This document shows positions 4,588 to 34,403 of a stretch of DNA of 64,000 nt, in pieces. Each line of letters begins with the position of its first letter. Position 1 is the first letter of the stretch. Source of the stretch: a virus. The notes under the pieces are model-generated. The model had not been told where the DNA came from. It did not search any database and was given only the letters and a program-made list of their open reading frames with translations. The translations under genes and the position numbers were made by a program. The DNA lies in the IMG/VR virus record IMGVR_UViG_3300047089_000113, positions 1 to 64,000 of that record. One strand, 5' to 3'.

Positions 4588-4588
4588 G

Positions 4589-7870: not shown

Positions 7871-7902
7871 CGGGTCTCACCCCCTCACGGGCGGCAAGGC
7901 CC

Positions 7903-8502: not shown

Positions 8503-9212
8503 TAGCTGACCGTGCCAGCCCCGGACGGGAAGCCGAAGCTGATCGTCTCGGTGGCGGTCCAGGTCTGACCGCCTGCCTTGGTGCCCTGCGCGGACACGCC
8601 CCGGTTGAAGAAGATATCGGAGGCACCCAGGCCGGTGGAGGTGACGCCCGAGACGTTCCAGTTGTCAGAACCGAACTCGTTCCACGCGAAGTTCGCGTTG
8701 GCACCCCCGAACGCTGCGACCAGCACCAGGGTGGGCGGCGATGAGCCGGTCGAGATCGTCGGTGCACCGGACACGAGCTGGAAGTAGCTGGTGACCGAGG
8801 CACCGCCCGTGTCCCCGACCAGCGTCGTGTTGGCGTAGGCCGCCGCCGTCGCGCTCGTGCCGACGCCGATCCGGCCCTGCGTGGCGCTGAACTTGTTGGT
8901 GATCGAGGTGCCCGCGATGCCGCCGAGCAGCGCCACCCAGCCAGCCTGGACCACCAGGTTGCAGTCGTCTTCCTGGGTCTCGGAGTAGGGCGCGATGCCG
9001 ACGCTGGCGAACTCATCGGGGGTGATGCCGCGCCAGTCCAGCGGCGGCAGCCAGTCCCCGTAGCCGATCCTGGCCATCGCCCAGTCGGTCATCTCCGCGT
9101 CGTATCGTTTCACGTTGAACGACGTGCTGATCTTGCCTGCGAAGTCGGCCAGGCCGAGGTCCACGCCGACGCTCAGCCGCTCGGAACCTGCTGCGAAATC
9201 GGGGTGTGTCAT
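8502..9212 (-). CDS. Minor tail protein (236 aa)
   Basis: 236 aa, ATG at 9212 with a purine-rich ribosome-binding site in the 9-nt gap to the upstream stop. The N-terminus (GVDLGLADFAGKISTSFNVKRYDAEM) is acidic and mixed. Residues about 60-90 carry WLPPLDWRGITPDEFASVG. The remainder is Gly/Thr/Ser-rich and beta-like (GRIGVGTSATAAAYANTTL). I recall similar proteins among actinophage tail operons but cannot give a named family. Structural role inferred from location and composition. Confidence 0.65.
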   Translation of the reverse strand: MTHPDFAAGSERLSVGVDLGLADFAGKISTSFNVKRYDAEMTDWAMARIGYGDWLPPLDWRGITPDEFASVGIAPYSETQEDDCNLVVQAGWVALLGGIAGTSITNKFSATQGRIGVGTSATAAAYANTTLVGDTGGASVTSYFQLVSGAPTISTGSSPPTLVLVAAFGGANANFAWNEFGSDNWNVSGVTSTGLGASDIFFNRGVSAQGTKAGGQTWTATETISFGFPSGAGTVS

Positions 9213-9221
9213 TCTCTCTCC

Positions 9222-10187
9222 TTACGCCAGTGCAGCGAGCTGCTGGAACTCATAGATGATGGACGTCGAGCTGCCTTCGTCTACGGACAGGATGCCGGTC
9301 TGCGTGCCGTCCGTGACCTGCTTGAATTGCAGCGTCTGGGTGGTGTTGCGCAGGCTGGCCGGGATAGAGACGGAGAAGCCCCCGCTGATGCTGTGCCGAT
9401 ACGGCCCGGTGGCAGTCGGGATGGAGACCAGGGTCTGCGGCATGGCCAGGTTGGGCGCGGCGACCGAGGTGCCGAAGAACGGGTTGACGTAGCCGCGTGC
9501 CCAGCCGGACTGCCACAGCGCGTCGTTGATCTGCCAGTTGACCTGCATGATCGTGGCCCAGGACGGGATATAGACCTGCCAGTTGGAGGCGGGGGGCCAG
9601 ATCACGCCAGCCGTGCCCACGGTCCAGTTCCTTACCACGGTCTCCTGCGCGCCGATCACCTGGAGCACCCGCTGCGGCTGCGTCACGAAGCGCAGATCCT
9701 TGATGTACGCCTGCTGGACCGTCGAGCTGCTGGCTGGCATGTCGATCCGAGCCAGCGGGATGCCGGACTGGCCGCCGGGCATGGTGGTGGCGGTCGGGGA
9801 CACCCCGGAGATCACGCGGGGGAAGATGATCTGGCCGCTGGCCGGGTTGCCCCAGGGGCTGCCGCTCCAGGTCGGGTCCTCGGCCCGTGCCACGATCAGG
9901 TCCGAGCGGATAGTGCCGGTGGTGGCCGCGATGGTCAGCGACGTGTCGTTGCCGACGTTGTACCCGTAGTAGCTGCCCTGGTAGGGCGTCTCGACGCCGA
10001 GGATCACGCAGGCCCCGCCCGCGATCACGATGCCCGCCGTGGCCGTGGGCGTGGTCGCGGTGACCGCCAGGTCGAGATGGCCGATGATGCCCTGCGCGCC
10101 CGCCGTGGAGGACTGGAGCATCAGCCGCAGGAAGTTGCCGGACTCGGTGTTGCCATCGACCGCGTAGACCGCGTTCTGGAAGGTCAT
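9222..10187 (-). CDS. Minor tail / upper baseplate protein (321 aa)
   Basis: 321 aa starting MTFQNAVYAVDG at the ATG at 10187, which overlaps the stop of the upstream gene as ATGA. The same frame is open further upstream but that part is shadow coding. The N-terminal half contains a HLDLAVTATTPTATAGIVIAGG segment and a YYGYNVGNDTSLTIA segment. The C-terminal half (FFGTSVAAPNLAMPQTLVSI, YRHSISGGFSVSIP) is beta-rich. It follows the distal tail protein, where actinophages usually encode upper minor tail proteins that attach the fibres. No enzymatic motif seen. Confidence 0.7.
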   Translation of the reverse strand: MTFQNAVYAVDGNTESGNFLRLMLQSSTAGAQGIIGHLDLAVTATTPTATAGIVIAGGACVILGVETPYQGSYYGYNVGNDTSLTIAATTGTIRSDLIVARAEDPTWSGSPWGNPASGQIIFPRVISGVSPTATTMPGGQSGIPLARIDMPASSSTVQQAYIKDLRFVTQPQRVLQVIGAQETVVRNWTVGTAGVIWPPASNWQVYIPSWATIMQVNWQINDALWQSGWARGYVNPFFGTSVAAPNLAMPQTLVSIPTATGPYRHSISGGFSVSIPASLRNTTQTLQFKQVTDGTQTGILSVDEGSSTSIIYEFQQLAALA

Positions 10188-11104
10188 GCCGAGCCTCCGA
10201 TTGCCAGCGTGGCGTTGCGCCAGGTGATCACGCAGGTGGCCTGGCCGGTGCTGTCCTGGCCGGTGAATCTCACGACGGTTGACCCCGGCTGCGCCTGCAT
10301 GCTGATCATCGGGCTGCCGGTGAGCAGGCCCGCCACGCTGCTCGTGTTCAGGATGGCCGTCCGAGCCCACGGGCGGGTGTCGATCACCAGCGTGTCCGTG
10401 GCCTTCATGACGCCGTTGTACCCGATCGAGACCGGCGTGTTGACGAAGACCAGGCCGGGGTAGCTGATCGGCCCGGTGATGGTGATCACCGGCCAGGTCG
10501 GCAGCGAGCCGGTGTTGACGATCGCGTTCTGCTGGAAGATGTTGCTGGCGGCGAGCTGGTACGGCGGGGTCAGCGGCGGCGTGATCGTGCCGAAGAAGCT
10601 CGGCCGCTGGGTGAGGTTCAGCACAGTCGGGATGTCGGAGTACCAGATGGTGTCGGCCGCCTGGAACTGGGCGGTGAACGGCACCACGCCCTGGTAGACC
10701 ATGCCGTAGGTGGGCACGATCTTCCGGCCGCGCCCGTAGCAGCGCCGGACCACGTTGCTGCCGGGGTAGTAGCCCCGCAGCACCTGCACCGTGTTGTCCG
10801 TCAGCCGCACACTGGGATCGTTCCAGGCACCCGCCAGCGCCGAGTAGGCGTCCATGGCCAGCGCCCCCTGGGCTGGCGAGGTGAGCGCGTAGCCGGTCTG
10901 GGTGATCACCATGCCGGGCAGCGTGTCGATGCCGAACAGCGTCCCGTCGTGCCCGGTAACCGCCTGGTCCTGGACCACCAGCGAGCCGGTGTCGGTGGCG
11001 GTGTTCTGGATCTGGATCGAGCTGGCCCCGCGCCCGTAGACGTAGCCCGGCCCGCCTTCCCGGCCGATGCTGTACTGGCCCACGGCCAGGGTCGGGTCAG
11101 CCAC
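10184..11104 (-). CDS. Distal tail protein (Dit-like, siphovirus tail component)
   Basis: 306 aa with a GTG start at 11104, overlapping the tape measure stop by 8 nt. The gene immediately after the tape measure is classically the distal tail protein that builds the hub ring between tube and tip. The sequence agrees: an N-terminal half with DAYSALAGAWNDPSVRL and GYYPGSNVVRRCYGRGRKIVP, a FTAQFQAADTIWYSD strand typical of siphovirus tail component proteins, and a C-terminal galectin-like beta section (VITITGPISYPGLVFVNT). Function is inferred by synteny plus this pattern. Confidence 0.8.
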   Translation of the reverse strand: MADPTLAVGQYSIGREGGPGYVYGRGASSIQIQNTATDTGSLVVQDQAVTGHDGTLFGIDTLPGMVITQTGYALTSPAQGALAMDAYSALAGAWNDPSVRLTDNTVQVLRGYYPGSNVVRRCYGRGRKIVPTYGMVYQGVVPFTAQFQAADTIWYSDIPTVLNLTQRPSFFGTITPPLTPPYQLAASNIFQQNAIVNTGSLPTWPVITITGPISYPGLVFVNTPVSIGYNGVMKATDTLVIDTRPWARTAILNTSSVAGLLTGSPMISMQAQPGSTVVRFTGQDSTGQATCVITWRNATLAIGGSA

Positions 11105-20220: not shown

Positions 20221-20835
20221 TTACCTCCCGGCCTGAGCTTGCGCTGCCCTCGCTCGGGTGCGCTCGGGCAGGATGTCCTCGGCGCTGACGTACGTGCCGC
20301 CCGCGCCGGGGTCACCGTCGCTGTTCTCGCTGCCCGGCACCGGCTCACCGGTCTCCGGGACCTCCTGCTGGAGGATCGCGGATGCGCCAGCCGGGTCGGG
20401 CAGCGGCATGCCCGAGCCCGGAGCGGGCGTTGCGGGCTGCCGCAACGCCCCCGAGACCGCGCGTGGGGGGACACGCTGCGGTGCCTCGCTGCTGGACTTC
20501 GGGCCGGTCGCGGGCCGGATAACCGGCACCCTGCGTCCGTCTCCCGGCCCGTGCCGCATGTAGCCAGCCGCTTCCTCGGGCGTGAGATTGACCGTCTCGC
20601 CCGCCATCACCAGGTCCGAGCCGCGCAGCGGGTCAGTCCCGCGCCGGGGCACGTTCAGGTTGATCAGCGCGATGTACGGGTCGCCGGGCCTGGAGGCAGG
20701 CGTCTGCACCTGGCTCTCCCGCGCGAGCAGCTTGTTCATCACCTCGCGCTCGGCCTCGGACAGCGGGGTCATCTCCGATGCCTCGTTGATGACCGGCATT
20801 GGGCGTCCTGCGCCTGGCCGTGTCTGCGGGGGCAT
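20221..20835 (-). CDS. Capsid-cluster protein with disordered Pro-rich tail (204 aa)
   Basis: 204 aa immediately after the major capsid gene (start and stop share a base). Residues 20-90 are ordered (LSEAEREVMNKLLARESQVQ, LNVPRRGTDPLRGSDLVMAG-ETVNLTPEEAAGYM), the last part resembling the GxTVDLSP strand-helix of the GAGN proteins. Residues 110-204 are Pro/Ser/Gly/Glu-rich and likely disordered. Possibly a head-associated or DNA-contacting protein; not recognised. Confidence 0.6.
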   Translation of the reverse strand: MPPQTRPGAGRPMPVINEASEMTPLSEAEREVMNKLLARESQVQTPASRPGDPYIALINLNVPRRGTDPLRGSDLVMAGETVNLTPEEAAGYMRHGPGDGRRVPVIRPATGPKSSSEAPQRVPPRAVSGALRQPATPAPGSGMPLPDPAGASAILQQEVPETGEPVPGSENSDGDPGAGGTYVSAEDILPERTRARAAQAQAGR

Positions 20836-21746
20836 CAGACTCCGCTCAGCAGCACGATGGCCAGCGGCTGGTCCAGGCCGATGGCAGCGGCGCGCTGCGT
20901 GTCCGACCGCCAGGTCTTGCGCGGCTCGTCGCGGTAGAGCGGGCCTGCCATGAACGGCAGCTCGTCCGCGAAGAAGCCCGCCCGCTGGCGCTGCATGATG
21001 AGCGCGTTGCCCGCCGGGACCTGGCGGGAGACCATCACGTCCAGGTTGAGGATCTGCTGCGGGAGCGTGCCCGTGTACAGCAGGTTCTCGCTGGCGATGT
21101 CACCGATGTACGGCGCGGCGAACGTGGCGCTCTGGAGCAGCGTGTTCTTGGTGCCGTGGTTGATGATCAGCGTGTCGGCCTCGAATCCGAGCCACTGCGT
21201 CACGCCGCTCGGGGACACGATGTTGGCGTTCTCGATCAGGTAGACCGCCTGCATGATGTCGGCCCGGATGGTCGCAGCCGCGCTGGCCCAGGCGTTCGCC
21301 ACGGCGAGTGTCTGGATCGAGGCGTTGGAGACTACCGCCGAGTAGAAGGCGGTGTTCCACGAGTAGACCATCGTGTTCTTGACCTGCAAGAGCTGGCGGG
21401 TCACCGGGTCGATGGCCTGACGGCGGCGCATCTCATCGGAGACCATGATCGCCATCGCGCGCTCGTGGCTGAAGACCACTCGCGGGATTCCGACGCTGGT
21501 CGGCACGATCGGGACCTCACCGAACTCAGGCCGGATCTCCGGGTAGTCGTCGGCGTACAGAGGCGTGCTCTCGGCGTACCTGACCGCGCCGGATGGTGCC
21601 GCCCCGCCCGACCGCAGCACCGAGTCCATGACGAACTCGTTGCGCGTGATATCGAGGATGAGCTGGGGGATGACCAGCGGGTCCTTCAGCAGCTCGTTGA
21701 CGGTGATCCGTGGTGCATCGCTATAGCTCCTGGCACCAGTCGGCAT
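20835..21746 (-). CDS. Major capsid protein
   Basis: 303 aa, HK97-fold type by sequence style and position. N-arm (APRITVNELLKDPLVIPQLI), E-loop region (SGAVRYAESTPLYADDYPEI), spine helix (RAMAIMVSDEMRRRQAIDPV) and P/A domains (ANAWASAAATIRADIMQAVY, TLIINHGTKNTLLQ, LNLDVMVSRQVPAGNALIMQ, GLDQPLAIVLL). It is preceded by the decoration and protease genes, as in many actinophages. The N-terminus does not look like a long delta domain, so scaffolding is probably supplied by the C-terminus of the protease gene. Confidence 0.92.
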   Translation of the reverse strand: MPTGARSYSDAPRITVNELLKDPLVIPQLILDITRNEFVMDSVLRSGGAAPSGAVRYAESTPLYADDYPEIRPEFGEVPIVPTSVGIPRVVFSHERAMAIMVSDEMRRRQAIDPVTRQLLQVKNTMVYSWNTAFYSAVVSNASIQTLAVANAWASAAATIRADIMQAVYLIENANIVSPSGVTQWLGFEADTLIINHGTKNTLLQSATFAAPYIGDIASENLLYTGTLPQQILNLDVMVSRQVPAGNALIMQRQRAGFFADELPFMAGPLYRDEPRKTWRSDTQRAAAIGLDQPLAIVLLSGV

Positions 21747-22479: not shown

Positions 22480-23682
22480 CTACAGGCCCATCTGCTGCCT
22501 GGCGCGGTCGATGACCTCGCTGCGCGCCGTCTGCTCCGCGCTCGGCTGCGCGCCGGGCGGCTCGTCCATCGGGGTGCCCAGCTCCGCGCCCAGGTCGAGC
22601 ATCTGCGCCATCTTGGCGTACTCGCTCAGCACCTTGCGCATGACCTGGCCGACGTCCACCCGCTGGCCGTTGGCCAGGTCGATGGTGTGCCCGGAGCCCT
22701 GGAGCACCGGCCGGGCCAGGTCGGTGATGTAGGGCGGCACGCCGAGATCCGCGAGCTGCCGCTTCTCCACATCGAACGTCTGCGCCTCGAACCGCGTCTG
22801 GAAGACGCCAAGCTGGCGCTCGGTCTCATCCGCGCGGGAGTTGGCGAGGTCGATGGCCATCTGCGCCTCGGCCGTCAGGCCGGTGGTCTGCATGGCATCG
22901 GCGGTGTCGGCGTCAAGCCCGGCCTCGACGGCGGCCAGCTCGTCATCGTCCAGGGCGGCGATCAGGTCGGCCAGCTCGGCGTCGGTCAGCTCGTCATCGG
23001 CTGGCGGTGCGGGCGGCGTGCTGCCGTTACCAGCAGGCGGGGCTTGCTGCTGCCCGAGCAGCCGGTCCAGGGCAGCCGGGTCCATGTTGAGCAGCTTGCT
23101 CAGGTTGGCCTGCTGCTGGGGGTTCATCTGCTCGGGCATGGTCTCCACTTCCTGTCCGGCGTAACTCGATCCGGTGAGGTCTATAACGAGTGACGGCGTG
23201 TTGGCCGCCTCGATGGTCTGCCAGGCCCCGAGGCCCGGAATGCGCGGGTCCAGTGTCCCGAGCACGTGCTGAACGGCGGCAGGGTAGAACTTCCCGTCCG
23301 CGCGCTGGTACTGCTCGACTATCCGCGCCGATACGCCCAGGTACGGATTCTCCCTCAGCACCTGCTCGCCAGCCGGGGTCGGGTCGAGCGTGATATAGAG
23401 CCCGTCCGGCTCGGTCTGCATGTCCACGATCGTGCCGCGATGACGCTCCGGGTCATTGGTATGACTGTTGCCCGCGTCCGCGAGCTGGAAGGACACCTGG
23501 TCATACGCCCGGCTGCGGAACGCCTCTGCCAGCCCCGCCAGGTAGCCCGGCGTGAAGTGCAGCGTGCGGCCCTGGTACTGGATGTCCCCGATCGGCAGCA
23601 CCCGCTTGCGCCAGAGCTTGTTGCCCAGCTCGATCGCAGTGCCCCGGTCGAACGGGGTCAGCAGCGCGGCGAAAGCGGTCAT
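22480..23682 (-). CDS. Prohead protease with C-terminal scaffold-like domain
   Basis: 400 aa. Residues 1-175 look like a prohead (assemblin-type) serine protease: strands LWRKRVLPIGDIQYQGRTLHF, His74 in GNSHTNDPERHRGTIVDM and Ser118 in NPYLGVSARIVEQY make a plausible His/Ser pair. Residues 200-400 are Gln/Ala/Asp-rich and helical (QQQANLSKLLNMDPAALDRLL, ELADLIAALDDDELAAVEAG), like fused scaffolding domains. The product probably drives capsid assembly and then cleaves itself and other head proteins. Position before decoration and capsid genes agrees. Confidence 0.85.
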   Translation of the reverse strand: MTAFAALLTPFDRGTAIELGNKLWRKRVLPIGDIQYQGRTLHFTPGYLAGLAEAFRSRAYDQVSFQLADAGNSHTNDPERHRGTIVDMQTEPDGLYITLDPTPAGEQVLRENPYLGVSARIVEQYQRADGKFYPAAVQHVLGTLDPRIPGLGAWQTIEAANTPSLVIDLTGSSYAGQEVETMPEQMNPQQQANLSKLLNMDPAALDRLLGQQQAPPAGNGSTPPAPPADDELTDAELADLIAALDDDELAAVEAGLDADTADAMQTTGLTAEAQMAIDLANSRADETERQLGVFQTRFEAQTFDVEKRQLADLGVPPYITDLARPVLQGSGHTIDLANGQRVDVGQVMRKVLSEYAKMAQMLDLGAELGTPMDEPPGAQPSAEQTARSEVIDRARQQMGL

Positions 23683-24293
23683 GAGGGTGCCCCGAACGAC
23701 TGGGCGCGCTTGGCGAACTTGTGCGCCTTGGCGTGGTCCCAGCCCTTGGCCTTCAGCTTCTTCCTGATGCTCAGGCCCTTGGGTGACAACTCGTTGTCGT
23801 CGGCGTCGGGCTCCTTGCCGCCGTTGGCCATGGTGACCCGAGCGCCGTCACCGGCTGAGCGCGCGGGCGTGGCCAGGGCGTTGATAGCGGGCACCCCGTA
23901 CTGCTCCATCAGCGGCGTCTGGACCGGCGGCGGCTGGAGCGCCCCGTCAGCAGGCTGGTCGGTGCCCCGGTTCCACAGGCCCAGCAGCTCGGCCAGGGCT
24001 CCGCGCTGGTGCACATGCGGCCGGGTGGACGTCTTGCCGCCGTAGACCGCCCGCCAGCCGTCCTCGTCCCTGATCTCCCCGATCAGCGTGCCGCCCCTGC
24101 GGTGCCGGATCGACGCGCCGCCGGTTGCGCTGCGGCCGATCAGGACGTCGCCGGGCGACGTGACCGGGTATCGCGGGGTGGCCAGCTCGACCCTGCTGCC
24201 CCTGGTGCGGCTGGCGATGTAGGCGGCTAGATGCTCGGGGTTGCTCACTCCGCGTACGGCTAGTGCTGCGATGGCAGCCTGCCGTGAGGCCAT
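23679..24293 (-). CDS. Head-cluster protein of unknown function (204 aa)
   Basis: 204 aa from the ATG at 24293; the frame is open upstream but not coding-like, and the ATGA overlap at 23682 links it to the protease. Residues 1-35 are helical (ASRQAAIAALAVRGVSNPEHL), 45-110 are beta-like with SPGDVLIGRS, GGTLIGEIRDEDGWRAVYGG. The C-terminal 45 residues form a basic helix pair (SIRKKLKAKGWDHAKAHKFAKRAQSFG). The basic tail could bind DNA or the portal; no family recognised. Confidence 0.6.
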   Translation of the reverse strand: MASRQAAIAALAVRGVSNPEHLAAYIASRTRGSRVELATPRYPVTSPGDVLIGRSATGGASIRHRRGGTLIGEIRDEDGWRAVYGGKTSTRPHVHQRGALAELLGLWNRGTDQPADGALQPPPVQTPLMEQYGVPAINALATPARSAGDGARVTMANGGKEPDADDNELSPKGLSIRKKLKAKGWDHAKAHKFAKRAQSFGAPS

Positions 24294-24378
24294 GACGCCT
24301 CCTAGACTCTCAACGTCTACTTGAAGGCCATCGTAGGCTGCCGCGTCCAGGAACGCATGACCCGGTATGCAGGAATCT

Positions 24379-24522
24379 TCAGGATTGCTGCTGCGCGATG
24401 GCCTGATCCGTAACCTCGGTGGCAAATTCCTCGGCGCGTTCTTCGTCCATGCCCTTGCTCACCAGAAGCTCTGTCCACACGTCGATGAGGTACTGGCGAT
24501 CCTCTGGTTTGACGGTCGCCAT
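24379..24522 (-). CDS. Small acidic helical protein (47 aa)
   Basis: Starts MATVKPEDRQYLIDVWTELL at the ATG at 24522, which shares one base with the stop of the upstream gene, and ends at a TGA at 24379. It continues LVSKGMDEERAEEFATEV and ends TDQAIAQQQS. Amphipathic, strongly acidic. The one-base overlap and good coding style support a real gene. Function unknown. The 85 nt from here to the next start hold nothing I can identify. Confidence 0.65.
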   Translation of the reverse strand: MATVKPEDRQYLIDVWTELLVSKGMDEERAEEFATEVTDQAIAQQQS

Positions 24523-25391
24523 CACAGCTTCTTAAAGAACTCGATGATGGTCTGGATCAGGAACGGACCCACCGTGGCGATGATCGGCAGGATCTCGGGA
24601 GCGCCCGACTTCACCGCGAGATAGGCCAGGGCACCGCCCGTGACGGCAAGACCGGCCTCGGTGGCGAGCTTCATCTTGGCCTTGCGGCCCGCCCAGGTGT
24701 CTTCTTCCTTCTTGGCCTCTGCCAGCTTCTGGCTTACGAGCTGCTGGGCCTGGGCCACCGCCTGCTGGGCCTTGCTCTCGGCCAGCGGCGCGACCTGGGT
24801 GGCGATGAGCTGCTGGTGGATAAGCTGCTCGCGCCTGGTCGGCTGCACCTTGCCGCTGACCTGGTAGGCAACCTCGGCCGCCTTGTTCTCGGGCGCGATG
24901 TCCGCCGGGACCTTGATCTGCTTGGCCAGCTCCTGCTGGATGAGCTGGCGCAGGTGCTCGTCGGAGACGTCGCTGCCCGCGCCGAGACTGCCGGTGCTGC
25001 TGGCGTGGCGGGACTGGGCGGCCTGTATCCGCCGCAGCCGTGCCGCCCGCTTGGCTTCCGTGCCGACAGCGCCGCCGGGGCCGACCCACTTCCCGCCCTT
25101 GCCCCGTCGTTCGGTGCGCCAGGCTTCGTTGGCCAGGTCGATGAGCTGGCTGGTGATGGTGTCACCCGCCAACTGCCCCAGGAGCGTGCCTTCTCCGACC
25201 ACGGGTCCAGTATCCAGCGTCCCGGCCAATCTGGAAAGCATCACGCCCGCATCCTGGATCTCGCGCAGCTCCGCGCCGGTCGCGGCGATGGCCATCTCGC
25301 GCACCTGGCTGAGCGCGCTGGCGACCCGGCCCGCCGGGTCTTCCCAGGCCCATTTGGCGATGCTGAGTGCCCGCTGCCCGTCTGGTGTCAT
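24522..25391 (-). CDS. Helical protein with C-terminal membrane anchor (289 aa)
   Basis: 289 aa, largely alpha-helical. Residues 95-130 are basic; 140-235 form a long Gln/Ala/Lys-rich coil (IQQELAKQIKVPADI, QAVAQAQQLVSQKLAEAKKE). Residues about 245-285 hold two hydrophobic segments (AGLAVTGGALAYLAVKSG and ILPIIATVGPFLIQTIIEFF). A coil plus membrane hairpin in the head gene cluster fits an ejected virion protein that could insert in the host membrane during DNA entry, but this is inference. ATGA overlap with the 1186-aa gene. Confidence 0.65.
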   Translation of the reverse strand: MTPDGQRALSIAKWAWEDPAGRVASALSQVREMAIAATGAELREIQDAGVMLSRLAGTLDTGPVVGEGTLLGQLAGDTITSQLIDLANEAWRTERRGKGGKWVGPGGAVGTEAKRAARLRRIQAAQSRHASSTGSLGAGSDVSDEHLRQLIQQELAKQIKVPADIAPENKAAEVAYQVSGKVQPTRREQLIHQQLIATQVAPLAESKAQQAVAQAQQLVSQKLAEAKKEEDTWAGRKAKMKLATEAGLAVTGGALAYLAVKSGAPEILPIIATVGPFLIQTIIEFFKKL

Positions 25392-28300
25392 GCCGCTTCC
25401 GCCATCTCGCGCTGCTTCTCGACCACCTGCTGGAAGGCCGCGCTCTTGGCTGACCTGAACGCCTGCCTGGCCGCGCCCTCCGGGTTATCGGTGTTCCACT
25501 GCTGAAGGATGCTCTCGGTGATCGTGCTGGCCATCTGGTCCATGAACGCCTTGTCCGCGCGCATCTTCGGCTCGTCGGTGGTCATCGCCAGGGCGAGTTG
25601 CGCCGCCATGGCCTGGACCTTGCCGGATGCTCCCTGGCGGTTCACCTGGTTAGCCAGTTCAACGATCCGCGCCCTGCCCTGCGGGCTGTCCAGGATCAGG
25701 TTCTCCTGCTGGACCACCTGCTGCACCCAGTCCTGGGCGTCCTTGGTCTGCGACGGGTAGTGCCCCCAGGCGTTGCCGTTGTGGATCTCGTCCGGGTTGT
25801 TGATGGTCTCGGCCATCTCCTTCACGGTGTGACCGGGGAACGTCCGGGCCTGCCGGTCCCCGATGCCCATCTGGTCAAAAAACTCGGGAGCGTGGTGGAT
25901 CGCGCCCAGCTCGGTGAAGCCTTCCTCGATCTGGGATACGGCGAAGACCTGGTACGCCTTCTCGTTGGCCTTCGCCGTGCCCGCCGGGACCACGCCGTGG
26001 ATCATCTCGTGCGCCAGCACCTCGAACGCATCGGGGTAGCGGACGGGATCGTCCGGGCGGTCGCTGGCGTCCTTGATCGCGGCGGCTACGTTGTCCGCGA
26101 TGGACAAGGTGCCGTTCCACTCCATCTCGGCCAGGATGTGCGGCTTGGACTCCTTGCGGTAGAGGCTGGCTTCACCGTCCCATTCCTCGTGACTGCCGCC
26201 GAGCAGGCGCGGGATGATGTTCGCCGCCTTGGTCGTCTCGGCCACGACCGCCGTATCCAGCTCCTGCTCATTCGGGATCGGCGGGCCGACGAACGGGACA
26301 GCCGCCGCGCGCAGCAGCTTGCCGATGTGCATCTGCTCGGTGCGGCCCCTGGTCCAGCGTCCCCGGAAGTCACGCAGCTCATCGGGATGGAACGCGAGGT
26401 CTAGGAGCGGTGCGTCAATCCCGCCTGGACCTGCTCGGCTATCTTCTCCGCTGCCGCCAGCCGCTCGTCCTCCGGGAGGTCCCAGTAGCCAGGCGGGATA
26501 GGCACGATCACCTTCGGCGTTGGCGTGCTCGATGATGCTTCCGCCACCGGTTCCTCCAGTCTGGATCTCCGCGCCGTTGTTCACGTCCCAGATGGCGATC
26601 TGGTTGCGCTCGGCTGCCGCGCGCACCGCCTCGGACTTGCTGGTGATGTTGTCGCTCGGCTCCAGCCATAGCTTACCGCCGTGTACCCACCCGCCGAGGA
26701 ACGTGCTCCGGTCCCTGAAGGCCGACTTCTCGGACATCAGCATGTCGTCAATAGCACGGGTCAGGGCCTTGCGATCGTCCAGGACCGACTCGGGGAAGAC
26801 GTGCGTGTGATCGGTCTGCGCCACCATGTAGCCGGTCTTCGGCTCACCGCCGGTATGCAGGCTGACGCTGAAGCCCTCGCGGTTCTGGCGCATGATGTCG
26901 GCGGCCTCGCCTACCGCGCCGAACTTCGCCCAGCGCCCCCGGTCATCGCGGAGCTGGTCCGGGTTGAACGCCATGTCGATCAGCGGCTCGCTGTCCGTGT
27001 TCGCGCCCTCGACCAGCCTGGCGTTGCCCAGCGCCCGGCCGCCGATGCCCATGCCGACAGCGAAGGAGATGGCGTAGGGGATGGCCAGCCGGGCTGGCAG
27101 GCCGATCCGCTGGACCTCGATCTCCTTCGGCCCGAGCCCGGCGTACGCCAGCGCCTCATCTGACGCCCATCGGTGGTGCCCGTCGATCACGTAGTTGTCG
27201 CTGGTGACCCAGATGGGCTCCTTCAGCATCTTCCGCACGGCCGGGACGTTCTTCTCGGCCGCCGCCGTGATGCCCGCCACCGTCGCGGCGGTGAGCTGGG
27301 TCTGGGTGGCGCGCAGGTTACCGGCCGGTACGCGCTCGTTCTTGACGTCGATGCCGTCGCGCCTGAGCTGGTCACGGAACTCGGGGTCCAGCTCGATGAA
27401 CTTGTTGGCCCCGCCCGCCAGCAGCGCCGCCTCGGAGCCGGGCCGGGCCGGGCCGTTGAGCTGCGGCATGTCGGTGCGCGGGATGCCCAGGGTCTGCTCG
27501 TTGAACAGCCGGGTGCCCTTGACGCTGACCAGGCCCAGGTCCCAGGGCGGCTCGTTGTCCCGCGTGTAGCCCTGCGCGCTGGCCTTCGCGTTCACCGCGT
27601 CGAGCAGCGGCTTGATCTCGGCCGGGCTGCTCAGCCGGACGTGGCTGCCAGCCGCCATCAGGTCCACGGCGCGGCCCATGTCGCCCTGGGCGTCGATCGG
27701 GTCCTCGGGGGTACCGGCACCGTCAGGCCGTCCCGGCAAGTTCAGCGGCTTGCGCTGGTCGGCTGCCTCCATCGACGGGATCTGCGGGTCGTAGCCCTCG
27801 AACCGCCCCCGGTAGCCGTGCCGCTCCAGGCTGGCCGCGTGCGACTCCAGCCCGCCGCCGCCGTGGGTCCACCGGCCGGTGATGTCCCGTTCCTCGTGCA
27901 GCCAGCCGGTGCCCATGTCAAGCACCTGGGCGGACAGCAGGCGTTCAGTTTCCTGAACGTTCGAGAACTGCTCGGTCAGCAGCCCGGTGGTGCCGGGCAC
28001 CAGCGTGTAGCCGTGCCGGGCGGCTTCCGCCTGCCACTTGTCCCAGGCGTTGCGCAGCATGGTGGACCGGCCCTTGGACAGCCGCCGTCCGCCCCGGCTG
28101 GCGGCCACCGATGAGGACAGCTCGTGCGCGGCCTCGTCCTCGGCCTCGTTGATCCGCTGCTGGCGCAGCCAGGTGATCGCCTGCACCTGGTGCGGGCTGA
28201 CCGGCGTGCCCCGCGCGCTGATCTCCAGGGCGGCGTTGCGGTAGGTGTCGGCCACGTACTGGTAGTAGCGGTCCTTGCCGATCGGGGCCTTGTCGGCTTC

Positions 28301-28948
28301 CTTCTTGGGCAGCCGCTCGTCCATAGCCACGGTCATCGCGTGCCGGTCGATGACCACCTGGCCGAGGTGATCGTCCGGCTCGTCACCGCCCGCGCGGATC
28401 AGCCGGGCGAACGCCTTGGTCTTGGAGCTGTTGTTGGCCTCGTCGGCGTCCATGCCGTCGATGGCTTCCTGGGCGTTGGCCTGCATCGAGCCGGTGATCA
28501 TGCCCTCGCCCGGCCCGAGCGCCCGGTTCTCGTCCAGCGACCGGTCGGCGTTGAACATGTTGACCGCCCAGCCGGTCTGCGGGGACAGGGCGGCGATCAC
28601 GCCCGCGTTCTTCTCGATGTCTCCCTGGTCCATCTTGGCGGCCAGGTTGTGCGCGTCGGCGTACCAGCGCATCCCCTGGGCGCGCTCCTGGGCATCGGAA
28701 TCGTCGTAGGCGGCGACCACGTTGGCCGCGCTGACCGGGTGCTCCTTGAAGAACGGGTGATCGGCGGGGGTGCGGTAGTAGTAGGACCCGCGCCGCTTGG
28801 CCAGGATCAGCCGGTCGGGGTCCGGCGCGGTGTACGCCTCGCCGCCCTTGGTCCAGCGCCCGCGCTCGTCGCGCTTCTCGAACGGGTCGAACCGCCAGCC
28901 CAGCTCCAGCTCATCCGGGCCGGTGAACCACTCCAGCAGCTCGGTCAT
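25388..28948 (-). CDS. Giant modular head-associated protein with ParB-like and zincin-like domains (1186 aa)
   Basis: 1186 aa made of four modules, each opened by an RDxxGRW element: residues about 26 (FDPFEKRDERGRWTKGG), 350 (ERDITGRWTHGG), 667 (FNPDQLRDDRGRWAKFG) and 860 (FHPDELRDFRGRWTRG). Module 1 has GVIAALSPQTGWAVNMF and VVIDRHAMTVAMD, a globular domain reminiscent of helix-hairpin-helix glycosylase-like phage proteins. Module 2 carries ATQTQL...IWVTSDNYVIDGHHRWASDE (near 590), a ParB/sulfiredoxin-like signature. Module 3 has GYMVAQTDHTHVFPE and NQIAIWDVNNGAEIQTGGTG, known to me from other actinophages without function. Module 4 has HEMIH (near 980) and a downstream EEGFTELGAIHH, a zinc metalloprotease layout. 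Probably a virion cargo or maturation protein. Confidence 0.8.
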   Translation of the reverse strand: MTELLEWFTGPDELELGWRFDPFEKRDERGRWTKGGEAYTAPDPDRLILAKRRGSYYYRTPADHPFFKEHPVSAANVVAAYDDSDAQERAQGMRWYADAHNLAAKMDQGDIEKNAGVIAALSPQTGWAVNMFNADRSLDENRALGPGEGMITGSMQANAQEAIDGMDADEANNSSKTKAFARLIRAGGDEPDDHLGQVVIDRHAMTVAMDERLPKKEADKAPIGKDRYYQYVADTYRNAALEISARGTPVSPHQVQAITWLRQQRINEAEDEAAHELSSSVAASRGGRRLSKGRSTMLRNAWDKWQAEAARHGYTLVPGTTGLLTEQFSNVQETERLLSAQVLDMGTGWLHEERDITGRWTHGGGGLESHAASLERHGYRGRFEGYDPQIPSMEAADQRKPLNLPGRPDGAGTPEDPIDAQGDMGRAVDLMAAGSHVRLSSPAEIKPLLDAVNAKASAQGYTRDNEPPWDLGLVSVKGTRLFNEQTLGIPRTDMPQLNGPARPGSEAALLAGGANKFIELDPEFRDQLRRDGIDVKNERVPAGNLRATQTQLTAATVAGITAAAEKNVPAVRKMLKEPIWVTSDNYVIDGHHRWASDEALAYAGLGPKEIEVQRIGLPARLAIPYAISFAVGMGIGGRALGNARLVEGANTDSEPLIDMAFNPDQLRDDRGRWAKFGAVGEAADIMRQNREGFSVSLHTGGEPKTGYMVAQTDHTHVFPESVLDDRKALTRAIDDMLMSEKSAFRDRSTFLGGWVHGGKLWLEPSDNITSKSEAVRAAAERNQIAIWDVNNGAEIQTGGTGGGSIIEHANAEGDRAYPAWLLGPPGGRAAGGSGEDSRAGPGGIDAPLLDLAFHPDELRDFRGRWTRGRTEQMHIGKLLRAAAVPFVGPPIPNEQELDTAVVAETTKAANIIPRLLGGSHEEWDGEASLYRKESKPHILAEMEWNGTLSIADNVAAAIKDASDRPDDPVRYPDAFEVLAHEMIHGVVPAGTAKANEKAYQVFAVSQIEEGFTELGAIHHAPEFFDQMGIGDRQARTFPGHTVKEMAETINNPDEIHNGNAWGHYPSQTKDAQDWVQQVVQQENLILDSPQGRARIVELANQVNRQGASGKVQAMAAQLALAMTTDEPKMRADKAFMDQMASTITESILQQWNTDNPEGAARQAFRSAKSAAFQQVVEKQREMAEAA

Positions 28949-31900
28949 GCTGCCTTCGCCCGTGCCTGCTTCTCCAGCTCACCGGCCTCGGCCTTGCCAG
29001 CCGCAGCCCTGACCTCGGGGTGCACCTTGCCGCCGCCCGCTGCCCAGCGCCGGATTGCCGCTCGGGCAATCGCGTACGCCTTGTCCTCGGACATGCCGCG
29101 CTTCTCGATCAGTGCCTTGACGATCTGCTGGAGGTACGGGGTGTGACCGAGCCCCTTGACGTCATATAGTCCGGGACCGCCGGGCTTCCCGCGCGGAGCC
29201 GGTGTGACACTGAGCACACCCGTCTGCGCGGACAGCTCGGCGGCGAACTGGCTGACGGATGAGACGGTCTCCATCTGCGGGATGCGCAGCGCGCCGCGCG
29301 TCGGGTTGGACGGCAGGCGGGTGCCGACGTAGTGACCCGGATGCGCTGCCCGGCGCGAGATCGGGCTGTAGGTCCGCTCCCGCCAGCCGGTGGCCTGCTT
29401 CGGCACCCGGTCCAGTTGCTTCTCCAGCTCGGCCAGGTCCCTGGTCCACATGCCGCTGGCCTCGGTGACGTTCGCCTGCTTGGCGACCTCCAGGTGTATC
29501 CGCGCCGACTTCATGTCCCGCCCGGCCAGCGAGTGAGCCAGGTTGTGCAGCGCGGTCTGCAAGGTCGATGACCTGTTGCCCGGCGCGGTGTCGGAGCTGA
29601 CCGCCTTCGCGCCCAGATCCTCGATCGCGCGCAGGTGCTCGAACGAGCCGGGCTGGAGCCCGGCCGCGAACTTGGTCGGGTCCACCTTGATCCAGCCGTG
29701 GATGTAGCCCTTCGGCCCGACCAGATCGAGCGGCGTGGCGAGATTCCTGGCCCTGGCCAGCACCGCCTGCGCCTTGCTGTGGGACGCGCCGCCCTTGCGC
29801 AGCTTCGCGTACAGCTTCTGCTTGCGCGCATCACCGCCGAACATCGCGCTGAAGCCCCTGGCCTCCTTGCCGGACAGGTGCCTGCCGAACGGGCCGGGGA
29901 TGCCCGCCACGCCGGTTACCGCCTCGTTGCGCATCGCCTGCTTGCTGACGTGCCCGCCGCTGACGTGGCCGCGCCTGGCCCCGAGCATGCTGGCCATGCC
30001 CGCTGCCTCGTGCCGGGAGACGTGCTTGCCGGTCAGGGCCGAGATCGGCATCTGCGCGGGGTCCTTGATCCAGCCGTGCCGGTAGCCCTTCGGGCCTGCC
30101 AGCTCGATGGCGTCGGTCACGTCCTCCCAGGACAGCGCGGCAGCCCGCTTCGTGTAGCTGGCGATCTCCCTCGCGTAGGTGCCGATCTGCCGGTTGATGG
30201 CCGCCGCCTCGGACGCGGCGGACAGCGGCCCGGCCGCCTTCTTGGCTCCCGCCGCCTTCCCGGTCTTGGCCCTGGCACCCGCCGCCGAGATGGCTGCCGC
30301 GCCCCTCTTGGCCGGTGCGCCCTTCTTGGCCGGGGTGGACGTGGCGGCCTTGCCGATCTGGCCCGCCTGGGTGGCCTTGTTCCGGGCGTCCAGCGCGGTG
30401 ATCCGGCCGCTGGCGAGCGCCTTCAGTATCCGGCGCAGCGTCTCGATCCTGGCCCGGTCATTGGCGATGGCCGCGAGCAGCGCAGACTTCGCCTGCTGAT
30501 TCGCTGACTTCTGCGCGGGCTTCTTCTGGGCTGCCCCGCCGCTGCTGCCCTTGATGAACTGCCCGCCGGTAGCGATACCGGCACCCGCGCGGGCCTGGCC
30601 AGGGTTGCCAGCCGGGTTGAACAGCTCTACAACGCGAAAGGGCGCGGCCCCGGTAGGCGTGGCAAAGCCAGCCGGGGGCACGGCCTTTCCCGCGTCAAAG
30701 CTCTTGCCGATGCTCCGCAGCACGGCCATCGCCCGGCTGTGCGAGTGCCCCCTGGCCCGCAGCGTCTTGTAGGCCCGCTGCTTCCTCGGGCTCATGCTCC
30801 TGACCCGGCTCTCCAGCGGCAGGCCGGTGCCCGCTGCCGCCGCCTCGGTGGCCGAGCCAGCCTGGAACAGCTTGCCCAGTGACCCGCCGGACGCCGGGAC
30901 GAAGTGATGCGTCGGGGTCCTGGGGAAGCGCAGGGACGGCGGGCCTTCCACGAACTTGTACTTCTTGCCCCGGATCGTGATCGGCGGCCCGGCCCCCCTG
31001 GCGGCCTCGGCCTTCTTCTGCGCCTCGATGCCCCCGCCGATCTTGATCCAGCCGTGCCTGAAGCGGAACGCCAGATCGACCTCGTTGGAGAACTGCGCCG
31101 TGGCGAGCTGGCGGGCCTGCTCCCGGTGGTTGGCCTCGGAAGCGAAATCGCCGCGCCTGTGCGCCGCGCCCGCTATCTTCAGGTGCAGCGCCATGGACAG
31201 CTTGCGCTTCTTCTCGCTGCGCCCGGCCGACTGGCTGGCCCCCAGTGCCCTGATCAGCCCGGCTCGCCGGGCCATCTTCATGCTCGCGGTGCCCGCCATC
31301 ATGCCGGGGACACCCTGCCACCGGCCGTGCCGGTCGCGCACCTCATCCGGGTTGTACCGCAGCTCGACCACGAAGCGGTCCTCGATGCCGTACGCGGCCA
31401 GGTTGAACTCGCTGCCCATCGTCTTAGCACCGGGCTCGGCCCAGGTGCCCTTCAGGTGGTGCGCCACGCCCATCCGCTTCGCGTTCTTCTGGATGGCACG
31501 CTTCAGCACTCCGCGCTTGCCCGGCGCGACCCGGCCGACCGCCTTCAGCGCCTTGTGCAGGTAGCTCACGTTCGGCATCGGGTAGCTGGTGCCGTACGCG
31601 GTCTGTCCCTTCTTCTGGAGCGCCCGCCTGCCAGCCGCCGTCTCATGATGGGGCACGGCGGCCAGCTCGATCGCGCCCAGCACATCGCCCCAGCTTGCGG
31701 CGACGTTCATCGGCGGCGGTGCCGGTGCTGATGATGTGCGCATGGCTCTCTCCTGGGCCTGCTGGTCCCGCTCGTCGCGGCGTTCCTGGCCGATAGCCCG
31801 GTTGGACCCGTGGATGTCCTCGATGTCCTTGACCAGCAGCAGGTGCCGGTGGGCCTGCTGCATGAACGCCTTGCCGCGCATGTGCCCGGCGTCATCGTGC

Positions 31901-32151
31901 ACGCCGTGGCGTCGGAGCTGGACCGGCTGGAGCCCGAAGATCGCGGCGTTCAGGTGACGCTGGGAGCTATTCGTGCGCCCGGCGTCCAGCTCGCGCGCCG
32001 CGTCCCGCAGGTGGTCGTGCACCGCCATCTCGGGGTAGGCATCGGCCATGTCGGCGGCCAGCTTGCGCAGGCTGGCCGATGTTCGCTGCTTCATCGGGCC
32101 GGTGGAGATGGCCCGGTGGAACCGGGGAGGTCCCTGCGGCTGCTCGGACAT
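28945..32151 (-). CDS. Giant basic modular head-associated protein (1068 aa)
   Basis: 1068 aa, very basic, between the MuF-like gene and the 1186-aa gene with ATGA overlap at 28948. Repeated elements: SWGDVLGAIELA (about 155) and SWEDVTDAIELA (677); RYNPDEVRDRHGRWQG (270); DLAFRFRHGWIKIGG (365), GPKGYRHGWIKDP (690), GPKGYIHGWIKVDP (815); and two helical blocks RKQRAYKTLRARGHSHSRAM (465) and RKQKLYAKLRKGGASHSKAQ (785). A Lys/Ala-rich disordered stretch (about 530-640) resembles histone tails. The C-terminus (EKRGMSEDKAYAIARAAIRR then GGGKVHPEV) is a motif common in actinophage head proteins. No enzyme signature. Likely an internal, DNA-contacting virion protein or multi-domain cargo. Confidence 0.75.
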   Translation of the reverse strand: MSEQPQGPPRFHRAISTGPMKQRTSASLRKLAADMADAYPEMAVHDHLRDAARELDAGRTNSSQRHLNAAIFGLQPVQLRRHGVHDDAGHMRGKAFMQQAHRHLLLVKDIEDIHGSNRAIGQERRDERDQQAQERAMRTSSAPAPPPMNVAASWGDVLGAIELAAVPHHETAAGRRALQKKGQTAYGTSYPMPNVSYLHKALKAVGRVAPGKRGVLKRAIQKNAKRMGVAHHLKGTWAEPGAKTMGSEFNLAAYGIEDRFVVELRYNPDEVRDRHGRWQGVPGMMAGTASMKMARRAGLIRALGASQSAGRSEKKRKLSMALHLKIAGAAHRRGDFASEANHREQARQLATAQFSNEVDLAFRFRHGWIKIGGGIEAQKKAEAARGAGPPITIRGKKYKFVEGPPSLRFPRTPTHHFVPASGGSLGKLFQAGSATEAAAAGTGLPLESRVRSMSPRKQRAYKTLRARGHSHSRAMAVLRSIGKSFDAGKAVPPAGFATPTGAAPFRVVELFNPAGNPGQARAGAGIATGGQFIKGSSGGAAQKKPAQKSANQQAKSALLAAIANDRARIETLRRILKALASGRITALDARNKATQAGQIGKAATSTPAKKGAPAKRGAAAISAAGARAKTGKAAGAKKAAGPLSAASEAAAINRQIGTYAREIASYTKRAAALSWEDVTDAIELAGPKGYRHGWIKDPAQMPISALTGKHVSRHEAAGMASMLGARRGHVSGGHVSKQAMRNEAVTGVAGIPGPFGRHLSGKEARGFSAMFGGDARKQKLYAKLRKGGASHSKAQAVLARARNLATPLDLVGPKGYIHGWIKVDPTKFAAGLQPGSFEHLRAIEDLGAKAVSSDTAPGNRSSTLQTALHNLAHSLAGRDMKSARIHLEVAKQANVTEASGMWTRDLAELEKQLDRVPKQATGWRERTYSPISRRAAHPGHYVGTRLPSNPTRGALRIPQMETVSSVSQFAAELSAQTGVLSVTPAPRGKPGGPGLYDVKGLGHTPYLQQIVKALIEKRGMSEDKAYAIARAAIRRWAAGGGKVHPEVRAAAGKAEAGELEKQARAKAA

Positions 32152-32154
32152 GGC

Positions 32155-32829
32155 TCACACTCCCGCCATAGCTGGCTCGGGACTGGTGCTGGGTAGCATT
32201 CTCGCACCGATGCGCGGCGGCCCCGCGTAGCACCGGCAGTGCGGGTGCACCGAGCCGGGGTAGCCGATCAGCGGCACCGAGCTGGCCCGGAAGTTCGCGC
32301 CGTTCGCGGCCCGGCAGTCGGCGCTGGTCCGGGAGTCGAGCACCGTGTTCCAGCCGAGCATGTCGCCCCAGGTCCACGCGGCCATGTCCACCTGCATGGC
32401 CGCCTGGGCACGCTGCCAGATGGCGTCCCGGTGCTGGCCGAAATAAAGGCGCTCGCGGGCCATCCCAGCCGCGAGCGCCTTTATCACTGCCTCCCCGCGT
32501 GACCGGGCCTCAACCATGTCCCTGGTCAGCCGCCGGGCTGCGGCCAGGGCGAACTGGGCGCGGCGGATCAGGTTGGTGCGGCTGGCGTTCATCGTGGCCG
32601 ATCCCGCGACCCCGGTCTGCTCGGGCGGCATCGCCATCACGACCTCCAGCGCGGCCCGCATCGCGCCCCGGCTGACCTTCCAGGTGACCAGCGCCGCGCC
32701 GCCGAGCATGGTCAGCGCGGCGACCGCGCTGGCCGCGCCGACCAGCGCGGTGGCGATGGCCGTCACCGCCGCCGCGTCAGCCGCCGCGTCCTGCTGCGGC
32801 TCCGGTGGCGGCTGCTGCGGGGTGCTCAC
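32155..32829 (-). CDS. MuF-like minor head protein
   Basis: 224 aa. Residues 20-50 are hydrophobic, 80-145 helical. The C-terminus has the hallmark of SPP1 gp7/Mu F proteins: LDSRTSADCRAANGANF (164-180) followed by GYPGSVHPHCRCYAGPP (189-205), with Cys/His that likely bind zinc. Encoded directly after the portal with an ATGA overlap. It binds the portal and is packaged in the prohead, affecting DNA ejection. Shorter than many MuF proteins, since the extra domains seem to sit in the separate giant genes downstream. Confidence 0.85.
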   Translation of the reverse strand: MSTPQQPPPEPQQDAAADAAAVTAIATALVGAASAVAALTMLGGAALVTWKVSRGAMRAALEVVMAMPPEQTGVAGSATMNASRTNLIRRAQFALAAARRLTRDMVEARSRGEAVIKALAAGMARERLYFGQHRDAIWQRAQAAMQVDMAAWTWGDMLGWNTVLDSRTSADCRAANGANFRASSVPLIGYPGSVHPHCRCYAGPPRIGARMLPSTSPEPAMAGV

Positions 32830-34403
32830 GCCAGCCGTCCGGGCGGCGGGACACTCGGCGGCTTAGCAGGCGGTGTCCGCTGCTGTGCCGGGGCCAGCGG
32901 CGCTCCGGGCGGCGGTCGCATCTGCGCGCCCTGCGGACGCCCGGCCGCGCGGTTGGCGATGGCAACGCCCGCGCCCGCCAGGCCCTGGAGCCCGCCGAGC
33001 GCCCCGGCGGCCTCGGGCGGCATGCCGGGCGGCGGCTGGGCCTGCAACTGCTCGGCCCGCTGGCTGGAGGTGGACATCAGCGCGGCGTGCACCTGGTCCA
33101 CGTCGAGCTGGAGGACCGAGGCCATCCGCTCGGTGATCAGGTCCACCACCTGGATCGGGATGTGCAGCGCGGGTGCCGCCACGATCTGGCCGAACAGGGT
33201 CAGCAGCGCCTGCTCCTGCTCATCCTGGAGCGGGCCGAACTTGGCCTGCGGGATCGCGGCCTCGGGACCGAAGTTGAGCACGGTCAGCGGCATGATGACC
33301 TGGTTGGAGTACGCCTGCGCGATCTCGGCAGCCACGCCCTGCCGGGACTTGAGGTAGAAGCTGGACTGGTCCTGGCTCAGTGCGTAGGAGCCCTTGCCGC
33401 CTGTTGCCGAGCTGGTCAGCGCCATGAAACCGGCCAGCACCGAGTGCACCTGCCAGCCCTCCAGGAAGTTCAGCGCCTCCACGAAGAACTTGCCGCCGTC
33501 GCCGCTGTTCTCCATCATCTCGAACGCCTTCTGGCCCGCCTGCGGCTGCTCCATGCCGACCACGCCCGAGGACTTCAGCGAGGCGATCGAGTCGGCGCGG
33601 TTGTTGGCGGACGGCTGGTCCGGCCCGTACACGACCACGCGGGGCAGCGCCTGGGTCTCCAGGAAGTGGTACCAGAGGTAGAGCAGCTTCATCTTGGTCT
33701 GGTAGCACCAGTAGCTGACCTCCATCTCCGACGCGCCGGTCAGCGGCTCGCGGTGCTTGCCGTGCGTGTAGATGAAGCTGCGGACGTGCGGGATGTCCAC
33801 GTAGCCGGGGACCTTCTGCTTGGACGCCGTGCTCATGAGCTGCCCGCCGAACAGCCACACCTGCTGGCGGAAGCCGTGCGGCGCGGCGGTCTTGGCGTTG
33901 TAGCGGGCCTGGCAGGTGGCGCTCGGCCGGAACGCGATCTTGTCGTAGATGATCTTGCCGTCGCTCTCGCGGATCTTCCAGACCTTCTCGAAGAACGCGC
34001 GCCGGTAGATCTGGCCGGACGTGATCTGGCCGATCAGGTCCACGTTGGGCGTCTTCATGCCGCCGATGTGGTCCGGCGTCAGCAGGACGCTGGTAGCCAG
34101 CTCCAGCTCGCCCTTGTCGCCCTTGGCCCCGGTGATGTCAAAGTCGGCCTCGCGGATCGGCAGGGTCAGCGCGGCCTCGACGGCTGAGCACAGCCCGTCG
34201 CGGCTGAACATCACCTTCATGTCCCGGCTTGACCACTCGCCGTAGTCAAAGACGTCGCCCTCGCCGTAGTAGGCGAATAGCCGCTGGCCCCAGTCGAACT
34301 GCGTGCCGATCTCCGGTCCCAGGAGCTGGCCCTTGGTCGCCTTCAGGTCCGGCAGCTTCAGCACCTGCGCGAGCGTGCCGGTGGCGTTCTGGCGAGGCGG
34401 CAT
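32826..34403 (-). CDS. Portal protein
   Basis: 525 aa, located between large terminase (3 nt gap) and MuF. Features of the siphovirus portal: N-terminal DVFDYGEWSSRDMKVMFSRD-GLCSAVEAALTLPIREADF (wing), central LYLWYHFLETQALPRVVVYG, stem-like helical region and C-terminal crown-like Pro/Gly tail (PPGMPPEAAGALGGLQGLAG). The pattern matches the actinophage DUF935-like/portal group: GKGSYALSQDQSSFYL is a shared signature. It forms the dodecameric ring through which DNA is packaged. Confidence 0.88.
   Translation of the reverse strand: MPPRQNATGTLAQVLKLPDLKATKGQLLGPEIGTQFDWGQRLFAYYGEGDVFDYGEWSSRDMKVMFSRDGLCSAVEAALTLPIREADFDITGAKGDKGELELATSVLLTPDHIGGMKTPNVDLIGQITSGQIYRRAFFEKVWKIRESDGKIIYDKIAFRPSATCQARYNAKTAAPHGFRQQVWLFGGQLMSTASKQKVPGYVDIPHVRSFIYTHGKHREPLTGASEMEVSYWCYQTKMKLLYLWYHFLETQALPRVVVYGPDQPSANNRADSIASLKSSGVVGMEQPQAGQKAFEMMENSGDGGKFFVEALNFLEGWQVHSVLAGFMALTSSATGGKGSYALSQDQSSFYLKSRQGVAAEIAQAYSNQVIMPLTVLNFGPEAAIPQAKFGPLQDEQEQALLTLFGQIVAAPALHIPIQVVDLITERMASVLQLDVDQVHAALMSTSSQRAEQLQAQPPPGMPPEAAGALGGLQGLAGAGVAIANRAAGRPQGAQMRPPPGAPLAPAQQRTPPAKPPSVPPPGRLA

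Follow-up and report, generated by a model that had tools for sequence, protein, structure and literature searches.

Organization of the locus

The 64,000-nucleotide stretch analysed here (the window) comes from a virus record of 80.6 kb (IMG/VR record IMGVR_UViG_3300047089_000113) and contains two giant adjacent genes, A and B, whose products carry copies of a short repeated peptide element. Both belong to an operon-like run on the minus strand that consists of terL, the genes for a Mu-type portal protein (32826..34403) and the MuF minor head protein (32155..32829), B (28948..32151), A (25391..28948), C (24522-25391), D (23679-24425), E (22483..23682), a small gene, and the gene for the major capsid protein, assigned to phrog_1650 (20835..21746). 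An earlier interpretation of the same DNA (the sequence-only reading) had placed the two giant genes between MuF and the prohead protease. The position is right, but C and D separate A from the protease, which is predicted to be encoded by E. Variants of the element are also present in C and D or in their relatives.

A is an acidic protein of 1186 amino acids (isoelectric point 5.2) in which four folded modules are accompanied by four linker elements. B, with 1068 amino acids, is strongly basic (isoelectric point 10.9, net charge +89) and contains a GGQF-like element in addition to one RDxxGRW and three HGWIK copies. In E, a predicted maturation protease (the N-terminal ~150 amino acids) is fused to an acidic scaffold. 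An NCBIfam search yielded no match for A, B, D, and E and only a sub-cutoff match for C, and whole-protein PDB sequence searches with A and E found nothing. Judged by domain content and gene neighbourhood, A can be classed as a polyvalent protein, i.e. disparate domains are joined in one chain that is encoded beside virion structural genes.

The repeated element and the modules of A

An exact scan located RDxxGRW at residues 26, 354, 667, and 859 of A and at residue 272 of B, and HGWIK near residues 365, 691, and 818 of B. Eight copies were thus counted, five of the first form and three of the second, in agreement with the at least seven of the sequence-only reading. Copy-to-copy alignment scores reach 87, 67, and 61, compared with 48 or less in all shuffled sequences.

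The conserved part of each copy, termed the tag, is directly preceded by a short cleavage-like stretch. The tags of A (all features of this section are on the minus strand) are GWRFDPFEKRDERGRWTKGG (28841..28900), preceded by LEL, GTGWLHEERDITGRWTHGG (27857..27913), preceded by VLDM, AFNPDQLRDDRGRWAKFG (26918..26971), preceded by LIDM, and AFHPDELRDFRGRWTRGR (26342..26395), preceded by LLDL. In B, RYNPDEVRDRHGRWQGV (31309..31359) follows VVEL, AFRFRHGWIKIG (31036..31071), which is intermediate between both element types, follows EVDL, AGPKGYRHGWIKDP (30058..30099) follows AIEL, and VGPKGYIHGWIKVD (29680..29721) follows PLDL. The B copy at residue 365, DLAFRFRHGWIK, combines the start of one element form with the end of the other. 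A further VVEL in B is followed by FNPAGNPGQARAGAGIATGGQFIKG (30547..30621), probably a third tag variant, and gene C has an IDL followed by a divergent tag, ANEAWRTERRGKGGKWVGPG (25077..25142).

A second repeat was noticed in B, RKQxxYxxLRxxGxSHSxAxAVL, which is basic and helix-turn-helix-like. It occurs twice in B (residues 456-480 and 776-800), and a weaker form is present in D.

An AlphaFold model of A, built with 20 sequences, shows four folded modules and low-confidence stretches at residues 1-25, 326-398, 637-682, and 802-892. Each of the four elements of A is located within, or borders on, a segment with predicted local distance difference test (pLDDT) values of about 50 or less. For A, the proposed location of the elements at domain borders is thus borne out, and the possibility that the element is part of a folded domain was rejected for this protein on the basis of the model.

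The four modules are of disparate kinds. M1 (27989..28756) is helical and belongs to DUF7178/phrog_3842 (the DUF7178 match covers A residues 74-261); relatives of M1 carry the annotation "glycosylase" in two phages. M2 (27029..27748), with the motif VIDGHHRW, is ParB/sulfiredoxin-like, based on phrog_2859 and BFVD ParB/Sulfiredoxin matches, and M3 (26543..26908), with the motif AIWDVNNG, is phrog_17808-like. M4 (25391..26272) is zincin-like and contains HEMIH and, further on, EEGFTELG. Its motifs HE[ML]IH and EEGFTE, i.e. HExxH and a downstream acidic ligand, are conserved in the window and in relatives (L169, L184, and L017). A Pfam peptidase match was not obtained for M4, and a Foldseek search of A against the PDB gave no match at an expectation value of 0.001 or below.

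M1 to M4 are distributed independently among phages, and swaps occur at the elements. This would be compatible with the element being a mere joint for module shuffling, i.e. repeated DNA that favours recombination and has no role in the protein. The codons are at odds with this view. For the shared R, D, G, and R residues of the five RDxxGRW copies of the window, the first and second codon positions are 100% identical, whereas the third positions are only 38% identical despite the identical amino acids, and this variation points to selection on the peptide. In addition, the element occurs alone at the N-termini of single proteins, and the residues upstream of it follow the phage lineage, not the module (see below). 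The recombination joint was rejected on the divergence of the third codon positions, and we regard it as the least probable of all explanations considered here.

The site upstream of the tag

The window residues in front of the tags resemble a protease site, and a lineage-specific pattern was found in their relatives. We defined the window clade as those contigs that have window-type portal, MuF, or protease genes. In this clade, [DE][LM] stands just before the tag in 31 of 36 elements, compared with 1 of 130 elsewhere (Fisher 3e-27, uncorrected for relatedness), and two of the five exceptions fit after a shift by one residue. Outside the window clade, the tag is preceded by K or R in 98 of the 130 elements. 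The pattern [ILV][DE]L[AVSTG] occurs 14 times in A to E, compared with about 1.9 times in shuffled sequences, while the values for 19 other structural proteins are 5 and 3.5, respectively.

Swapped modules allow the two parts of the element to be distinguished (a slash marks the candidate cut). M3 is preceded by LIDM/AFNPDQLRDDRGRW in the window, by VIEL/DWQMEPRDSHGRW in G002, and by LFLK/YNPDQPRDPNGRF in L074. Likewise, the ParB module comes after VLDM/ or VLDL/ in contigs of the window clade; elsewhere, it comes after KVLK/, AQK/, or LLQK/. At the level of these sequences, the tag travels with the module and the site with the genome, which would agree with a cut made by the protease of the respective phage and sets the site apart from the tag.

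The element thus reads as a composite, in which an h[DE]L sequence resembling a cleavage site leads into the tag. The sequence-only reading had interpreted the chains as polyproteins with the element as either a targeting tag or a cleavage site. This is supported in part, but the two roles are not alternatives, because each part also occurs separately: sites without a tag are found in E, and several single proteins begin directly with the tag (MAFDPTEERDPHGRWT, MSFNPRQPRDRLGRW, and MARRKFNPRQPRDLRGRW). One might still assume that site and tag together form one recognition sequence for the protease, and that the tag has no function of its own; the two are indeed adjacent in most copies. However, the conserved h[DE]L sites of E have no tag, and the N-terminal tags MAFDPTEERDPHGRWT and MSFNPRQPRDRLGRW have no site, so that only a slight chance is left for a joint recognition sequence.

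In genomes with K before the tag (K-type), similar motifs are found in the head proteins. In one such genome, G027, a tag lies inside the protease polyprotein itself, and the N-terminal part of the capsid protein contains ELVK/GAG and AVQK/SFTAG. Other K-type capsid proteins have the matching TLVK/G, DMVK/G, or TLTK/G, and an hhK/ motif is also present at the end of the protease domain (QLVK/A). In Bergeriella, LAK/G precedes the tag of a portal-MuF-LPD3 protein; an S78 protease is encoded next to it, as is a capsid-like protein containing ALHK/GFTQ. These K-type and Bergeriella matches are resemblances only.

Protease/scaffold E as the candidate cutter

Three h[DE]L sites of E, none of which is followed by a tag, are conserved across ten relatives. 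VIDL/T (23173..23184, minus strand, as are the other two) lies where the protease domain ends; all 10 relatives have hDL[ST] there, within a linker that is otherwise variable in length and sequence. AIDL/A (22843..22854) and TIDL/A (22672..22683) lie in the scaffold part.

PHROG and PDB searches gave no sequence match for E. With the model of E, the top Foldseek match was T4 gp21 (5jbl; expectation value 1.3e-3, probability 1.00), followed by the herpesvirus proteases (assemblins). H74 and S118, the predicted catalytic His and Ser, are invariant in 12 sequences. By these best structural matches, the N-terminal part of E is predicted to be a maturation protease of the T4 gp21/herpesvirus assemblin fold.

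A could also be processed, together with B, by its own HEMIH zincin. M4 has the HExxH...E arrangement of such a domain, and autoprocessing by domains of this kind has been proposed for DdrB of phage P1 (PMC5512222). However, a homologue of the zincin was not found in the sequence examined of G001, L022, L192, L039, L154, and L190, yet the elements of these relatives keep [DE]L, and the same sites are present in the scaffold part of E. The zincin was rejected as the processing enzyme on the first of these grounds, and we consider it very unlikely in this role. The protease of E is the likelier cutter, in view of the zincin-less relatives and of the parallel with the prohead protease SPN3US gp245, which cuts several head proteins as well as its own C-terminal part at a single short motif (PMC10052503).

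Spread of the tag and the domains that follow it

An exact DNA scan of IMG/VR for P-x3-RDxxGRWT retrieved at least 119 stretches, with the peptide in frame in at least 91 open frames, and a scan for GYxHGWIK retrieved 36 stretches and 35 frames. The consensus sequences are [AK][FY][DN]P[DN][QE]PRDx[HR]GRWTxGGG for 108 non-redundant RDxxGRW copies and [IVL]x[KL]VGP[KEH]GY[IV]HGW[IV]KVG for 63 non-redundant HGWIK copies. RDxxGRW was counted 12 times in 11 homologous loci, versus 0.0 in shuffled sequences. In 34 phage records, the HGWIK pattern had dozens of matches, always on one strand per record, and a reversed control pattern had 0. Up to 12 tags were found in one genome, spread over 31 kb on one strand. 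The tag is N-terminal in some solo proteins, and in polyproteins it is internal until the proposed cutting.

The domains downstream of the tags were identified for 149 segments. ADP-ribosyltransferase exoenzymes were found 11 times, zeta toxins 5 times, rifampin ADP-ribosyltransferases (Arr) 4 times, and ART-PolyVal domains twice; topoisomerase I, a bacterial RNase A toxin, a 2H ligase, the Acb1 anti-CBASS protein, and a SprT-like domain are single cases. This repertoire is that of injected polyvalent proteins (PMC5512222). A further tagged toxin was noticed in Methylocapsa palsarum, where the tag is followed by an Ntox50 domain (L228, 4510-5559).

Comparisons with annotated phages by tblastn gave mostly chance matches when the short element was used, and with the consensus form the only informative matches were Nocardia phage P3.1 and Mycobacterium phage Predator. 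Both encode small basic proteins that start with the tag (L173, 7989-8699, and L174, 7995-8756, respectively) and are annotated as "capsid/head maturation protease". The two are unlike proteases, and the annotation is possibly erroneous.

The sequence-only reading had raised the question whether the element occurs only beside prohead protease and MuF genes. Most tagged genes of the phages examined map to the head region, and a portal or MuF protein forms part of some tagged proteins; in bacterial genomes, several tagged genes are far from any capsid gene. Three portal proteins have C-terminal extensions that bear an HGWIK tag and further domains (L185, 14248-18036; L186, 9577-13053; L181, 12774-16484). 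HGWIK phages also have a repeated domain, VHKPTGxxVGH...THADGT...LAxxHN, exemplified in L188 (8665-12570 and 12570-14798), with several copies in one protein; the copies lie shortly after HGWIK tags.

Two loci of Rhizobiales encode a tagged protein that possibly ends in an HH-type nuclease, and a DUF2019 gene follows: in L227 (4628-7697), they lie between the genes for an S78 prohead protease and the capsid, and in L225 (5435-7998), they precede the capsid gene. These gene-transfer-agent-like clusters may possibly encode a particle-delivered toxin and its immunity protein.

The tag is attached to very different enzymes, and it is kept across unrelated capsid and portal types (the Mu-type portal in the window, phrog_2662 elsewhere), which would be odd for a capsid-binding peptide. 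It would also stay on the product after the proposed cut. These observations are compatible with a different role of the tag: the linkers would be cut as proposed, but the tag would act afterwards, for example during ejection through the tail or inside the host cell, or it would dock to DNA or the portal. The prevalence of tagged genes in the head region and the fusions to portal or MuF speak against such a role, as does the fact that N-terminal packaging signals are known in T4 and P1 (PMC9024508). We consider a purely later role unlikely, albeit worth keeping in mind.

Microbacterium phage Pumpernickel

An independent case is the cultured Microbacterium phage Pumpernickel (L175, loci 4296-8900 and 9066-11102). 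Its gp84 (1534 amino acids) is a polyprotein that holds a head maturation protease domain (profile match at 969-1234). It contains seven [LV][VI]A[AS]G motifs, compared with 0.11 expected, and those at 961 and 1150 lie at the start of, and inside, the protease-profile stretch, respectively. The capsid protein gp85 has one such motif, at 351, while none was found in six other neighbours, of which gp82 was covered in part. Two RDxxGQF elements are also present in gp84.

Interpretation

We favour the following explanation and regard it, as a whole, as probable, with appreciable room for error. A and B would be polyvalent cargo precursors (the case for C and D is less clear) that are made together with the head genes and enter the prohead. 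There, the maturation protease of E would cut between (I/V/L)-(D/E)-(L/M) and the following residue X in the disordered linkers, as in its own scaffold. A would yield four pieces (DUF7178, ParB-like, M3, and zincin), B would yield several basic ones, and every product would have the same tag at its start, in the form FNPxxxRDxxGRW or VGPKGYxHGWIK. This tag would most likely serve for loading the module into the head or for keeping it there, leading to ejection with the DNA. The elements, their linker positions, the lineage-matched upstream sites, the sites of E, and the kinds of tagged modules can be read directly from the sequences, and from them we infer the cutting of A and B at the linkers, for which the sequence support is good, as well as capsid loading by the tag and ejection. 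Head loading or retention is the simplest role for the tag, but the tag is also used with unrelated capsids and by some solo genes of bacteria, so that it may instead act in ejection or in the host.

Several points weigh against this explanation. The [DE][LM] counts come from related, non-independent sequences, and the site is just 3-4 residues long. A match to it, VELA at A residue 1096, falls in a predicted helix and is, according to the model, probably uncut. Outside the window clade, 31 of 90 RDxxGRW elements lack both K/R and [DE]L at the corresponding position, and the window capsid protein has no obvious propeptide site. Several tagged bacterial genes are distant from any capsid gene; Afipia clevelandensis (G036) is such a case, and no PF05065 capsid was found in its genome. 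The solo tagged genes of this species and of other Alphaproteobacteria could be remnants, or the tag could be used in trans. In 13 other contigs, tail-fibre genes were as frequent as head genes among the annotated matches to neighbours of tagged genes. An 81-gene neighbour scan was dominated by tail-fibre families and by itself gave no head linkage; this linkage was obtained by checks of individual loci.

A more general proposal, which we put forward tentatively and hold to be somewhat less likely true than false, is that the tag is portable and marks particle-carried proteins, in the same form, in unrelated tailed phages, prophages, and gene-transfer-agent-like clusters of several bacterial phyla. 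Genomes would chain tagged effectors and rewrite only the few residues before the tag to suit their own head protease. If true, a short motif plus a local protease site would suffice for predicting, in many uncultured phages, which effectors are injected, and giant "hypothetical" head proteins could be divided into working pieces. It would offer a sequence handle on anti-defence proteins delivered at the start of infection (the tagged set includes Acb1 and many ADP-ribosyltransferases), and possibly a naturally occurring tag with which proteins could be loaded into phage heads. The explanation also yields a concrete prediction for Pumpernickel.

Comparison with known systems

A prior description of the paired tag and lineage-specific site was not found in the literature searched. 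T4 internal proteins have a short N-terminal packaging peptide, a head protease of the same predicted fold (gp21), and are ejected as cargo with the DNA, features for which counterparts are proposed here. The T4 targeting peptide precedes the cut and is lost from the product, whereas the tag described here lies downstream of the proposed cut and would remain on the product. Moreover, the T4 carriers are single proteins, in contrast to the module chains of A and B.

For DarB of phage P1, the N-terminal 30 residues suffice for sending a protein into the head, but DarB is one large protein without a repeated tag (PMC9024508). SPN3US gp245 has a different motif and removes propeptides instead of splitting effector modules (PMC10052503).

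The closest resemblance in domain content is to the polyvalent proteins of phages and conjugative elements, which are predicted to be injected with the DNA (PMC5512222). As described by Iyer et al. 2017, these are likewise large and multidomain, their genes lie close to virion genes, and their effector domains include ParB-like, metallopeptidase, ART, 2H, and PBECR domains, among others (PMC5512222). That work favours processing by the zincin, whereas a head-protease-type site and a repeated tag are found here at each border; the word "linker" does not occur in its main text, and a repeated interdomain peptide was not noticed in the parts consulted (PMC5512222). The MuF polymorphic toxins of temperate phages also have toxin domains on head proteins (PMC5576092), and some tagged modules follow MuF, as in the portal-MuF-LPD3 protein of Bergeriella. 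Unlike these toxins, the cargo described here resides in separate genes with repeated tags.

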